Of a stretch of DNA of 64,000 nucleotides, positions 13,686 through 58,995 are shown one piece after another. A program made the translations under genes and the position numbers. Numbering within the stretch: position 1 is the stretch's first letter; each line of letters starts with the position of its first letter. The stretch is from Dyadobacter fermentans. Its GTDB lineage: Bacteria; Bacteroidota; Bacteroidia; Cytophagales; Spirosomataceae. Under the pieces are notes generated by a model that was given only the letters and a program-made list of their open reading frames with translations, was not told where the DNA came from and did no database searches. Location: contig NZ_JAHXBN010000020.1 in NCBI RefSeq assembly GCF_019924045.1, positions 1 through 64,000 of the forward strand, given 5' to 3'.

Positions 13686-13694
13686 GTGGGCTGT

Positions 13695-13806
13695 GAGCTT
13701 TAAGCTATAAGCTATAAGCTTTAAGCTACGACTTACAGCTTACGGCTTACGGCTTACCGCTTACGGCCTACCGCTTACAGCTTACAGCTTACAGCTTATA
13801 GCTTTG
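13695..13806. repeat. Array of sixteen 7-base units with opposed halves
   Basis: From 13695 the sequence reads in 7-base register: first AAGCTAT-type units (four to five copies), then AGCTTAC-type units (about ten copies, variants GGCTTAC, CGCTTAC). AAGCTAT and its kin are near reverse complements of the AGCTTAC units, so the two halves can pair as a hairpin. The same unit recurs at 38924-39018. It lies between the small gene and kdpD; the bases after it (13811-13846) resemble the AAACTC-type repeat at 51686-51788. Confidence 0.85.
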
Positions 13807-18824: not shown

Positions 18825-19229
18825 ATGAAAATGAAATCACTACTGATCTCCCCGATGATTATGGTCGCTATGCTGGTATCCTGTAACAATGGCGATGTGA
18901 GCATTGCCGTGAAGGACGAGGATGATTACTATCGCTTCAGGGCCCAATTCGGTGATAACCTGTCGCCCGATGTGAGCAGGTTTCTGAACGACCAGCTTTC
19001 GACTGTGCGGATCGATCCGGAGAAGGACTCCAAAATCATTACGGTGTTGCCGGACCAGACCAGGATCACCATAGAATCGTCGCCCGGTGAGGTGATGATC
19101 TACCTCGACAAGGACGAGAACAGCCGCGATTCTTACTATCGCGTTAAAAACCTTTGCGAAGGTGTGAAGGACGTTATTCTCAGACACAAGGGGAACAATA
19201 CCCGCTTGGAAAATTCCCGCTCAAACTAG
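18825..19229 (+). CDS. Putative lipoprotein of unknown function
   Basis: This 134-residue protein begins with a lipoprotein signal (MLVSCNN, lipobox cysteine at about residue 20). The acidic mature part contains DEDDYYRFRAQFGDNLSP and SSPGEVMIYLDKDENSRDSYYR. No family is recognised. It lies 51 bases upstream of the membrane-bound LuxR regulator on the same strand, so the two may be co-transcribed and could form an envelope sensor with its regulator; that link is from position only. Confidence 0.65.
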   Translation: MKMKSLLISPMIMVAMLVSCNNGDVSIAVKDEDDYYRFRAQFGDNLSPDVSRFLNDQLSTVRIDPEKDSKIITVLPDQTRITIESSPGEVMIYLDKDENSRDSYYRVKNLCEGVKDVILRHKGNNTRLENSRSN

Positions 19230-19279
19230 TCCGCTGAGCGAAAATTTTTATTTTTGGTAAACCAACAGACTGGTTACAA

Positions 19280-19765
19280 ATGGTTTCCAAAACGATCAGC
19301 GATTTTTACCGCAAACACAGGCAGGAGCTACTCTACGGTGTATCGCTTGCCTTGTTGCTTTTTGTGCTCAGATGGCTCGAATTGCGGTTTCTGGTCATGA
19401 GCCATATCATCGAAATTTACATAGGCGCCATTGCATTGTTATTCACCGGGCTGGGTATCTGGCTCGCGCATAAGCTCACCACGCCTAAAGTGGAGACACG
19501 CATTGTAGAGCGGGCGGTGTATGTGACAGCGGGGGATGATTTTACCGTCAATGAGCCGGAACGGATTCGGCTGGGGATCAGCCACCGCGAGCTGGAAGTG
19601 TTACAGCTCGTAGCCGAAGGGTTGAGCAACCAGGAAATCGGGGACCGATTGTTCGTGTCGCTCAACACGGTGAAGACACATTCGTCGCGGATATTCGAAA
19701 AGCTCGAAGTCCGCAACCGTACGCAGGCAGTGGAGCGTGCGAGGCGCATTGGGCTCATCGGCTGA
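19280..19765 (+). CDS. Membrane-anchored LuxR-type transcription regulator
   Basis: This 161-residue protein has two predicted transmembrane helices (about residues 17-35 and 43-64) and a linker. A complete LuxR/GerE helix-turn-helix occupies about 97-160 (ISHRELEVLQLVAEGLSNQEIG and VSLNTVKTHSSRIFEKLEV). There is no receiver domain, so control must come through the membrane part or a partner. Short membrane-bound LuxR proteins of this layout occur in Bacteroidota. The adjacent lipoprotein gene upstream and the inverted decamer array immediately downstream are its neighbours. Target genes unknown. Confidence 0.82.
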   Translation: MVSKTISDFYRKHRQELLYGVSLALLLFVLRWLELRFLVMSHIIEIYIGAIALLFTGLGIWLAHKLTTPKVETRIVERAVYVTAGDDFTVNEPERIRLGISHRELEVLQLVAEGLSNQEIGDRLFVSLNTVKTHSSRIFEKLEVRNRTQAVERARRIGLIG

Positions 19766-19780
19766 TGGGGGGGACGTTGT

Positions 19781-19973
19781 GGTCATGTATTGTCAGGTGT
19801 AGTCATGTATGGTCAGGCGTAGTCAAGTGTAGTCAGGTGTAGTCATGAATAGTCAGGCGTAGTCATGTTTGGTCAGGCGTAGTCATGTGTTGTTAAGTGT
19901 AGTCATGTATTGTCAGGTGTAGTCATGTTAGTCATGTATGGTCAAGTCAAGTCAAAGTCAAGTCAAAGTCAAT
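19781..19973. repeat. Left arm of inverted decamer array
   Basis: Fourteen contiguous 10-base units fill 19781-19920 with consensus NGTCANGTNT, for example AGTCATGTAT and GGTCAGGCGT. They decay into AAGTC-rich sequence until 19973. The consensus is the reverse complement of the right-arm unit (20001-20220). GTCA recurs once per 10 bases, close to one helical turn. No coding frame is credible here. Confidence 0.9.
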
Positions 19974-20000
19974 GTCTCATTAGCTTAGAGCGCCTAACGT

Positions 20001-20220
20001 ACTATACCTGACGACACATGACCAAACCTGACTACACCTGACTATTCTTGACGACACATGACCATACCTGACCACACCTGACTATTCATGACGACACATG
20101 ACCATACCTGACCACACCTGACTATTCATGACCACAAATGACAATACTTGACTATTCTTGACGACACATGACCATACCTGGCAACACCTGACTATTCATG
20201 ACCACAAATGACAACACCTG
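20001..20220. repeat. Right arm of inverted decamer array, with 40-base super-repeat
   Basis: Twenty-two contiguous 10-base units with TGAC once per unit (consensus ANACNTGACN after phase shift). Four-unit blocks repeat as a 40-base super-repeat: those starting at 20051 and 20091 are identical and 20011 and 20161 are close. The arm is complementary in consensus to the left arm across a 27-base unique centre (19974-20000). The gap 20221-20320 after it is plain and leads to the DUF4199 gene. Confidence 0.9.
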
Positions 20221-20320
20221 ACCAAACAGCCCCCGAATGCAAAATCACCCGAAAGTATGACGCAAAAACAGCTGGCACGCCTCAATTTCGCAGCATTATC
20301 GAACATTTAAATCAAATGAT

Positions 20321-20854
20321 ATGAACAGGATCGTCGTAATCTGCGGAATCATTTCTGGCGCGCTGGTGTCAACTTTCATGGTTTGCTCTATGGCAGTCTG
20401 CTACCAGAAAGAGGCCTTCGAGGGTAATATGCTGCTGGGTTATGCGGCTATGCTGCTATCGTTCTCCATGGTTTTTGTGGGCATTAAAAACTACCGCGAC
20501 AAATACTGCGGCGGCTCGGTGTCTTTTGGAAAGGCATTCAAAATCGGGCTGTACATTACGCTGGTGGCTTCAACGGTGTATGTGATCGTCTGGCTGATCG
20601 ACTACTACATTTTTATCCCCGATTTCATGGATAAATACACGGCGCATTTATTGAAACAGTTCCAGGCCGAAGGTCCGACCGCCGCCGAACTCGAAGCAAA
20701 GGTCGTAGAACTGGCCGGATATAAGGAGATGTATCAGAATCCGCTGATGGTGATCCTCTGGACTTACGCAGAGATTCTGCCGGTAGGGCTGGTTGTTACG
20801 CTCATTTCCGCATTGATTCTCAAAAAGCCCGGCACGGAGGCGCGGCTGGCTTAG
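20321..20854 (+). CDS. DUF4199 family membrane protein
   Basis: This 177-residue protein has four predicted transmembrane helices (about 5-27, 38-57, 75-98, 143-167). It has the DUF4199 pattern, including VFVGIKNYRDKYCGGSVSFG and FKIGLYITLVASTVYVIVW. The family is widespread in Bacteroidota and its function is unknown. It stands alone on its strand, preceded by the decamer array and followed by a 14-base inverted repeat that may be its terminator. Confidence 0.82.
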   Translation: MNRIVVICGIISGALVSTFMVCSMAVCYQKEAFEGNMLLGYAAMLLSFSMVFVGIKNYRDKYCGGSVSFGKAFKIGLYITLVASTVYVIVWLIDYYIFIPDFMDKYTAHLLKQFQAEGPTAAELEAKVVELAGYKEMYQNPLMVILWTYAEILPVGLVVTLISALILKKPGTEARLA

Positions 20855-20920: not shown

Positions 20921-20992
20921 AAGGGTTTGTGTTTCAAAGGTTTTTAGCTATAATCGCCTGAAAATCTTTTAGTAAACACAAACCCTTCTTTT
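20921..20992 (+). terminator. 14-base perfect inverted repeat before the LRR gene
   Basis: AAGGGTTTGTGTTT (20921-20934) and AAACACAAACCCTT (20974-20987) are perfect reverse complements separated by 39 bases and followed by CTTCTTTTT. It fits a long-loop terminator for the DUF4199 gene, but it ends only seven bases before the GTG start of the next gene, so it could also be a leader structure or operator controlling that gene. Confidence 0.5.
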
Positions 20993-38916: not shown

Positions 38917-38923
38917 TGTTTTT

Positions 38924-39018
38924 AGGCTTTAAGCTTTAGGCTGTAAGCTATAAGCTGTAAACTGTGAGCTATCAGCATATTCCCTGTGGCTTACAGCTTA
39001 AAGCCTATTGCTTATAGC
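38924..39018. repeat. Second 7-base unit array with opposed halves
   Basis: Left half (38924-38983) reads in 7-base register as AGGCTTT, AAGCTTT, AGGCTGT, AAGCTAT, AAGCTGT and so on. The right half (about 38996-39018) has the reverse-complement type GGCTTAC, AGCTTAA, AGCCTAT, TGCTTAT. It is the same family as 13695-13806 and lies between the flavoprotein gene end and the RNA methyltransferase start. Confidence 0.8.
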
Positions 39019-51685: not shown

Positions 51686-51788
51686 GAGTTATAAGTTTAA
51701 AGTTTATGAGTTTAAAGTAAACATAATTAAACTTTGGACTCATAAACGCTAAACTCGTAGACTTTAAACTCTAAACTCACAAACTTTG
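51686..51788. repeat. AAACTC-type inverted short-repeat array
   Basis: GAGTT/AAGTTTA units fill 51686-51719 and ACTTT/AAACTC units fill 51729-51788. The left 18 bases at 51701-51718 pair with 51731-51748 at 15 of 18 positions around a 12-base centre. This is the same style of opposed short-unit array as at 13695, 19781 and 38924, with different units; fragments of this type also lie at 13811-13846. It separates the MMPL gene from the M28 gene. Confidence 0.75.
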
Positions 51789-58830: not shown

Positions 58831-58893
58831 AATGATGTGCGTTGGTTCCGGTTGGGGAACGGTTAAATGTTTATTGACCGCGATTGGTTTTTT

Positions 58894-58990
58894 GACTGCT
58901 GACGGCCGACCGCTGATCGGGAATTGCATTTCGGCAACGGGCAATGATAGCTGAGTGCAAACTGCAATCGGCGGTCGGCCGTCAGCGGTC
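58894..58990. repeat. 24-base inverted repeat between pdxA and yicC
   Basis: Arms at 58894-58917 and 58967-58990 are reverse complements at 22 of 24 positions; the inner core GCTGACGGCCGACCGC is perfect. They are separated by 49 bases. It is GC-rich and lies between the pdxA stop (58996) and yicC start, with the right arm followed by AAAAATTAG. It may be a terminator-like hairpin for pdxA or a short mobile repeat. Confidence 0.8.
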
Positions 58991-58995
58991 AAAAA

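Follow-up and report, generated by a model that had tools for sequence, protein, structure and literature searches.

The array

The decamer array occupies positions 19776-20228 of the window, by which is meant the whole 64,000-nucleotide stretch of DNA analysed, and lies between a gene for a LuxR-type regulator and a DUF4199 gene (Table 1). Pfam places GerE (PF00196) at residues 101-153 of the upstream gene product (E = 1.7e-20); its N-terminal hydrophobic stretches were read by eye. The first core of the left arm is found 16 nt past the LuxR stop codon. The array was present as first described, with TGAC or GTCA phased in 10-base steps in both arms. The preliminary description had 14 decamers facing 22; there are 14 exact GTCA cores at 19782-19922 and 21 exact TGAC cores at 20009-20219, and one unit in each arm is altered (GTTA at 19892 and TGGC at 20179). 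The 40-base blocks were also confirmed, 20049-20088 being identical to 20089-20128. Beyond 19922 the spacings of the left arm are 9, 10, 5, 5, 6, 5 and 6 bases, ending at 19971. This short-period GTCAA tail is absent from the first description, and the centre, given there as 27 unique bases, is rather about ten bases longer, depending on where the tail is cut. Part of the centre, ATGTCTCATTAGCTTAGA, recurs in two relatives (D. jiangsuensis, L002, and genome G003, L005).

Table 1. Features at the locus (window coordinates)
Feature	Position	Strand	Basis
Upstream gene, two N-terminal hydrophobic stretches and C-terminal LuxR-type HTH	19280-19765	+	ORF, Pfam
Left arm, decamers with GTCA at the end (read as TGAC on the minus strand)	19776-19945	-	spacing and pattern scans
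Inner end of left arm, GTCAA tail, step down to 5 or 6 bases	19946-19971	-	core spacings
Centre (loop), about 37 bases	19972-20008	.	sequence reading
Right arm, 22 unit positions beginning TGAC (21 exact), 40-base blocks	20009-20228	+	spacing and pattern scans
Conserved motif AAAATCACCCGAAAGTATGA, candidate operator	20241-20260	.	by eye, relatives upstream of the DUF4199 gene
Downstream gene, DUF4199 (PF13858)	20321-20854	+	Pfam

A three-unit pattern gave 28 matches in the window and none in 100 dinucleotide shuffles. The ORF scan of the window found no ORF of at least 60 aa covering the array, and the earlier statement that it is non-coding needs qualifying only at its edge, where a 61-aa minus-strand ORF extends into the first bases, as far as 19786. 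The units are contiguous, with no unique spacers between the repeats as already noted in the preliminary description, and a CRISPR was rejected on that ground.

The same spacer in relatives

The window locus was compared with 27 loci of relatives in which a LuxR-HTH gene is followed by a DUF4199 gene. An array or a remnant was present at 6 of these 28 loci (the window, three full arrays and two remnants), with spacers of 155-555 bases, and unit number and block structure differed between sister species at the same spacer. The other 22 were array-free; the script measured 14 of their spacers, all of them 100-123 bases long. An assembly error was dismissed as unlikely, because in five other species the assembled sequence has an array (L002, L003, L005) or remnants of one (L004, L006) in this spacer, and the numbers of units are different.

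A form of the motif TCACCCGAAAGTATGA precedes the DUF4199 gene in the 12 array-free spacers inspected in the right orientation, and in about 10 of these 12 an inverted, usually imperfect copy was seen by eye right behind the LuxR stop codon. The six loci with an array or remnant retain the right copy only (20241-20260 in the window) and the left copy is missing. L007 and L008 have neither an array nor the inverted copy behind the LuxR stop. Absence of the left copy and presence of an array are not linked. The one array-free spacer of the ancestral type that was folded (L020) was not unusually stable (z = -0.39), and for that reason we do not call this type of spacer a proven hairpin.

A dispersed family with a fixed unit grammar

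A four-unit TGAC-N6 pattern had 610 matches in the 8.0-Mb D. fermentans genome and none when reversed. A sample of 2.13 Mb, 26.6% of the genome, contains 149 of the 610 matches in 25 decamer loci, none of them in genes, from which approximately 100 loci are expected genome-wide. The array in the window is one of these roughly 100 expected copies of a degenerate decamer family, which is built of inverted arms around a short centre. Given so many sites, its association with the LuxR gene looks incidental: the array does adjoin the regulator gene, as first noted, but a LuxR-specific operator was rejected given the genome-wide family. A striking array beside a regulator may thus be unconnected with that regulator.

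The units follow the grammar TGAC-H-A-Y-H-M-M, with similar composition in both arms, and the variable positions contain little G (1-7%). Among 242 internal units, alterations at core positions 1-4 and 6 affected 0.8-4.1%, and positions 5, 7, 8 and 10 had entropies of 1.3-1.7 bits; these units were selected by their flanking exact cores, which favours conserved arrays. The spacing between neighbouring cores was exactly 10 in 691 of 795 cases and 9 or 11 in 33. Arms reach about 36 units, with median spans of 55 and 64 bases, and elsewhere in the genome there is an array of 17.5 twenty-base repeats. The two arm lengths of a locus correlate weakly (rho = 0.35, p = 0.017, n = 47). The centres of 44 loci share 8-mers in 128 pairs (shuffle mean 22, maximum 40); most of these words resemble altered units (GTTA/TAAC) that continue into the centre, and we therefore do not claim that the centres are unrelated.

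A conserved TGAC-NA core with an exact 10-base step, among neighbouring positions that vary, makes phased protein binding possible. A DNA- or RNA-binding protein might read the core once per helical turn, cover one side of each arm and act at the ends of genes as a roadblock, as an insulator or at a nucleoid site. The 691 exact spacings and the contrast between core and variable positions speak for it, the latter with the reservation that the unit selection just mentioned favours conserved arrays. We consider this reading unlikely in view of the polarity and the sister families described below. In a bolder and distinctly unlikely form of it, a trans-acting factor (protein or RNA) would recognise the TGAC-NA decamer at every helical turn behind dozens of genes, forming a genome-wide 3'-end network in Dyadobacter and its relatives in which array length tunes the sites, with parallel networks of 7-, 8- and 9-base codes, sometimes nested in the hairpins of one another.

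Placement and polarity

Placement was examined at 67 Dyadobacter loci, drawn from the 2.13 Mb of D. fermentans and from 43 matches listed elsewhere in the genus. Genes were called by an ORF and hexamer script, not taken from curated annotation. Array clusters within 300 bases of the end of a sequence were left out, and spacers bearing arrays are counted in the background. The arrays are intergenic and begin mostly just past stop codons, favouring convergent spacers and avoiding divergent ones. Among the matches listed, none of the 67 loci was inside a gene; 19 were in convergent spacers (background 173/1145, p = 0.005) and 3 in divergent spacers (background 252/1145, p = 0.00016). In tandem spacers, again among the matches listed, the array was closer to the upstream stop in 35 of 45 cases (p = 0.00025), with median distances of 17 nt from that stop and 60 nt on the other side; each distance was taken to the outermost exact three-unit run, which overstates the gap.

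The arms have a nearly fixed order. The GTCA arm came first (left) in 48 of 49 two-arm loci among the matches listed; in D. fermentans 17 of 18 two-arm loci pointed the same way, or 19 of 20 with a looser pattern. Transcripts predicted to leave a stop codon within 80 nt of an array would meet GTCA first in 62 of 68 cases among the matches listed, and the 17 single-arm faces near a stop were split 13 GTCA-first to 4 TGAC-first (same matches). Phased binding gives no reason for one polarity in 48 of 49 listed loci.

The arrays might also be a neutral or selfish short-period satellite, generated by slippage and block duplication and persisting only in spacers where it causes little damage, past stop codons and away from promoters, with the hairpin as a by-product. 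Purging at promoters could produce the 3' bias without any function, and TAG stops are commoner where a gene 3' end faces an array (31/83 against 443/1849, raw counts among the matches listed), as would follow from arrays extending into the ends of genes. The 48 of 49 polarity among the listed matches is unexplained by a satellite unless the copies descend from one two-armed founder. Nor does a satellite account for a constant core next to free variation at positions 5, 7, 8 and 10. Satellite origin is taken up again with the evidence on turnover.

Folding and pairing of the arms

The predicted folding energy of the RNA of 19770-20320 was -222 kcal/mol, shuffled sequences averaging -142 (z = -11.7), with the complementary arms folding on each other. 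A 146-base piece of the left arm alone did not fold on itself beyond chance (z = +1.95). Three readings had been offered in the preliminary description: a phased protein-binding array, a long RNA hairpin and a product of template switching. The hairpin fits best of the three, because the arrays lie at gene 3' ends with fixed polarity, and because the arms pair while the left-arm piece does not pair with itself; phased binding is possible, and template switching is unsupported here.

Native arms were compared with arms swapped between loci where both arms were at least 30 nt. This retained 18 of 21 pairs from D. fermentans (one locus gives two pairs), 27 of the 43 named loci listed for other Dyadobacter, and, after removal of duplicates and short arms, 7 of 11 chosen loci from other genera of the family. 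In D. fermentans native arms gave -21.9 kcal/mol and swapped arms -24.4 (n = 18, p = 0.99), so individual loci there do not preserve pairing between their own arms. In other Dyadobacter the values were -25.2 and -22.5 (n = 27, p = 0.006, among the matches listed), and in other genera of the family -35.5 and -22.5 (n = 7, p = 0.0014). The missing native-arm preference in D. fermentans is direct evidence against selection on pairing in that genome, and it also favours a satellite; native arm pairing in other genera is something that a satellite leaves unexplained.

Template switching from arm to arm was rejected for D. fermentans, where arms of the same locus match no better than arms of other loci: unit likeness was 2.76 of 6 positions within a locus and 2.85 between loci (18 loci, permutation p = 0.95), and mirror identity was 0.65 in both cases (p = 0.72). 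It could apply in other genera of the family, because the arms match closely there; in other Dyadobacter they do so weakly.

No intrinsic terminator was found on the plus strand of 19200-20400, in the sense of a GC-rich stem followed by a T-tract, and no terminator-like T-tract follows the array on that strand. The minus strand of the same region has two terminator-like stems with a T-tract, one at 20255-20230 beside the array (shuffle mean 1.0). Rfam matched MIR4371 on both strands at 19835-20061 with 49.6 and 43.4 bits (gathering score 110) and, weakly, mir-1017 at 20927-20986. With scores weak or far below gathering, both were taken as chance matches of hairpins.

Turnover and possible spread

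Nine stretches of the D. fermentans genome were compared with D. jiangsuensis (G018). Arrays at 93.4 kb and 38.9 kb are conserved in both species, those at 13.7 kb and 51.7 kb are present in one species only, and those at 58.9 kb and 123.9 kb stand in the same place with other units. At 95.1 kb one species has a decamer array and the other an unrelated CTTCGACTTCGCTCAG palindrome, and at 111.5 kb a CTTCGACTTCGCTCAG palindrome adjoins a decamer palindrome. The empty sites in D. jiangsuensis were too diverged for a target-site duplication, one of the marks of a MITE, to be read by eye. The two CTTCGACTTCGCTCAG palindromes of D. jiangsuensis are at 14739-15009 of L076 and 12278-12523 of L077; one replaces a decamer array of D. 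fermentans and the other is beside a decamer palindrome. The exact CTTCGACTTCGCTCAG word occurs at no place in the 2.13 Mb of D. fermentans.

Within the arms of D. fermentans, adjacent units were alike at 2.91 of 6 positions, compared with 2.97 for units of an arm in general; next-but-one units were somewhat more alike (3.26). Because neither adjacent units nor the arms of a locus are more alike, slippage by single units and copying between arms play no leading part here. The main reshaping in this genome is by blocks of 20, 40 and 60 bases. Block duplication of this kind suits a satellite, as do the 40-base blocks in the window, the twenty-base repeats elsewhere, the likeness of next-but-one units and the fact that sister species differ, within one and the same spacer, in how many units they have and how the blocks are arranged. 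Together with the points on its other side given above, we regard a satellite without function as a possible but somewhat unlikely explanation.

If the arrays formed a REP-like element, a RAYT (Y1 transposase) might have mobilised them. They are palindromic, intergenic, dispersed and often near stop codons, like part of the E. coli REPs as described in PMC12306157, and Y1_Tnp genes are present in 19 of the 20 Dyadobacter genomes examined. The numbers of Y1_Tnp matches overlap, however, between 9 array-rich genomes (1-6) and 11 array-free genomes (0-4), and D. beijingensis (G002), with 134 pattern matches, has only 1. Arms of up to about 36 units do not fit the plan of a REP, in which one unpaired tag adjoins a palindrome of 20-40 bp, and no fixed or shared end sequence was seen by eye in the flanks inspected (up to 26 per side). 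These points weaken mobilisation by a RAYT, which we consider very unlikely.

Other short-period families

Sister families with periods 7, 8 and 9 coexist with the decamers in the genome, and for phased binding this means that the helical step is not general. The patterns of the families were written after examples had been seen, so the counts are not blind. In the 2.13 Mb of D. fermentans polarity was fixed in all two-arm loci of GCTNTAA/TTANAGC (12/12), GACC.../GGTC... (7/7) and GGAGGAAAG/CTTTCCTCC (12/12); GTTTAAA and TGAATGAY had few such loci (2 and 1). All two-arm loci of these families in the 2.13 Mb were outside genes. With the 9-base pattern, one arm sufficing, 5 of 28 loci were inside genes. 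Decamer arms were nested in the arms of another family at 3 of the 25 loci (0.25 expected, p = 0.002); a fourth nested case (C80, 93.4 kb) was too short to be included among the 25.

Several such arrays were seen in the window itself. Heptamer inverted arrays of GCTNTAA/TTANAGC are at 13690-13804 and 38921-39018, the first absent from and the second conserved in D. jiangsuensis. A GTTTAAA-like heptamer inverted array at 51689-51787 is absent in that species, and a GACCGCC-like one at 58889-58995 has different units there. About four copies of a 24-base repeat with the core GGTGGTCAGTTT, at 4-104, are outside the decamer family.

Distribution

The array family, whose absence from all relatives had been named as grounds for discarding the observation, is present in 35 of the 48 genomes of the genus, including our own. 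In the family sample the pattern matched 50 of 200 genomes and 5 of 36 genera, Dyadobacter included and some with a single match; the reversed control matched 2 genomes. In the phylum sample 11 of 395 genomes matched, our own included, against 6 for the reversed control. As the 10 matches besides our own are near this control rate, only the four phylum-sample genomes from outside the family with TGAC-N-A-Y units throughout are counted (G254, G349, G525 and G448, from two other families); G448 has one G at unit position 5. Occurrence of such units in other genera of the family and in these four genomes is a further point for phased binding.

Among the matches listed, the grammar was found outside Dyadobacter in Spirosoma, Mangrovibacterium and several Bacteroidales and other MAGs, with outliers in Amazonocrinis, Ignatzschineria, a Fusobacteria MAG, Mesorhizobium, Kitasatospora and two Planctomycetota MAGs. 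The outliers from other phyla are mostly one-armed, several being near-identical tandems, and L201 is the only one among the matches listed that is clearly two-armed. This locus lies outside Bacteroidota, in a Planctomycetota MAG (possibly misbinned), and its grammar is largely the same. Scanning viral contigs for the grammar gave 15 stretches, most of them near-identical tandems, with varied units in one arm in L325 and L327. By eye, none of the 15 had a second arm of at least two exact units in the surroundings inspected.

A dispersed element was seen in the Bacteroidales MAG Tobar18m-G2 (L193, L207, L213, L214, L224, L225, L247). In it a GTCA arm is separated by 105-107 bases from a TGAC array, and each copy has its own set of array units; the three copies inspected hardly vary in the middle part.

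Interpretation

The reading we favour, with moderate confidence, is that the array belongs to a dispersed, fast-evolving repeat which would form a hairpin at mRNA 3' ends. The working unit would be a hairpin in the RNA, located where the mRNA of the upstream gene ends; this hairpin may end or protect the transcript and insulate it from the next gene. Structure and position would be kept and the order of the units left free. The family probably spreads as a ready-made two-armed element that is later reshaped by block duplication and deletion, and spread in that form would explain the fixed polarity. The hairpin reading explains least well the conserved TGAC-A core across loci and genera.

Short-period repeats of bacteria are often treated as slippage noise. 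Here a strict unit grammar, fixed polarity, 3'-end placement and the replacement of one palindrome by an unrelated one in orthologous spacers can be measured within one genus, so that the proposition of a hairpin kept while its sequence drifts becomes testable.

Comparison with known repeats

The literature searched, from which most subscription journals are absent, gave no description of the decamer family. Repeats of this kind are known from other bacteria, and the decamer family would be new among them. The tandem heptanucleotide repeats of Calothrix carry the label STRR. Such tandem heptanucleotides of Calothrix are mentioned in PMC4692102, and the P6b hairpin of the Nostoc trnL(UAA) intron is described in PMC3488679 as built of degenerate heptanucleotides which pair in the RNA and whose copy number and indels vary between relatives. 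Like these cyanobacterial repeats the Dyadobacter units are short, degenerate and tandem, with facing arms that pair. They differ in having a period of 10 rather than 7 (the predominant 10-base spacing excludes a heptanucleotide repeat), in belonging to Bacteroidota, in lying in spacers behind stop codons and not in an intron, and in the single polarity of nearly all two-arm loci among the matches listed.

Arrays of the heptamer TAACTGA occur in Beggiatoaceae, Cyanobacteria and five Bacteroidetes (MacGregor 2015, PMC4679880). As presented in the relevant passages of that paper they resemble the decamers in being dispersed, intergenic, patchy across phyla, long in some Bacteroidetes and in some cases lacking where a close relative has the corresponding spacer. 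According to those passages, TAACTGA is repeated exactly and in direct orientation, in the main genome mostly ahead of start codons, and no structure is predicted for it, whereas the decamers are degenerate, inverted and at 3' ends. The GGGAATC and GGGGA(C/T)T repeats of Xanthomonas and Nostoc resemble the decamers in being intergenic, in part inverted and very variable in length and sequence, most of these heptamers having the same neighbouring genes in a pair of related species; by the account in the same source they form G-quadruplexes, and their unit and period are others (PMC4692102). The BrickBuilt minisatellite-MITE of Porphyromonas gingivalis, characterised in PMC4596501 by a 23-base repeat with leader and tail, is likewise a tandem array in a dispersed intergenic element of a Bacteroidota. 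Compared with that account, the decamers are inverted and degenerate, and no conserved ends were seen.

REP elements are extragenic palindromes, some of which lie no more than 20 nt from a stop codon, and for which roles in termination, mRNA stability and translation are proposed in the portions of PMC3733652 and PMC12306157 devoted to them. The decamer arrays differ from REP elements and REPtrons in that no single 20-40 bp palindrome with an unpaired GTAG or CGTC tag at one end was seen; the numbers of Y1 transposases overlap between genomes with and without arrays. Like REP elements, they are extragenic and lie near the 3' ends of genes.
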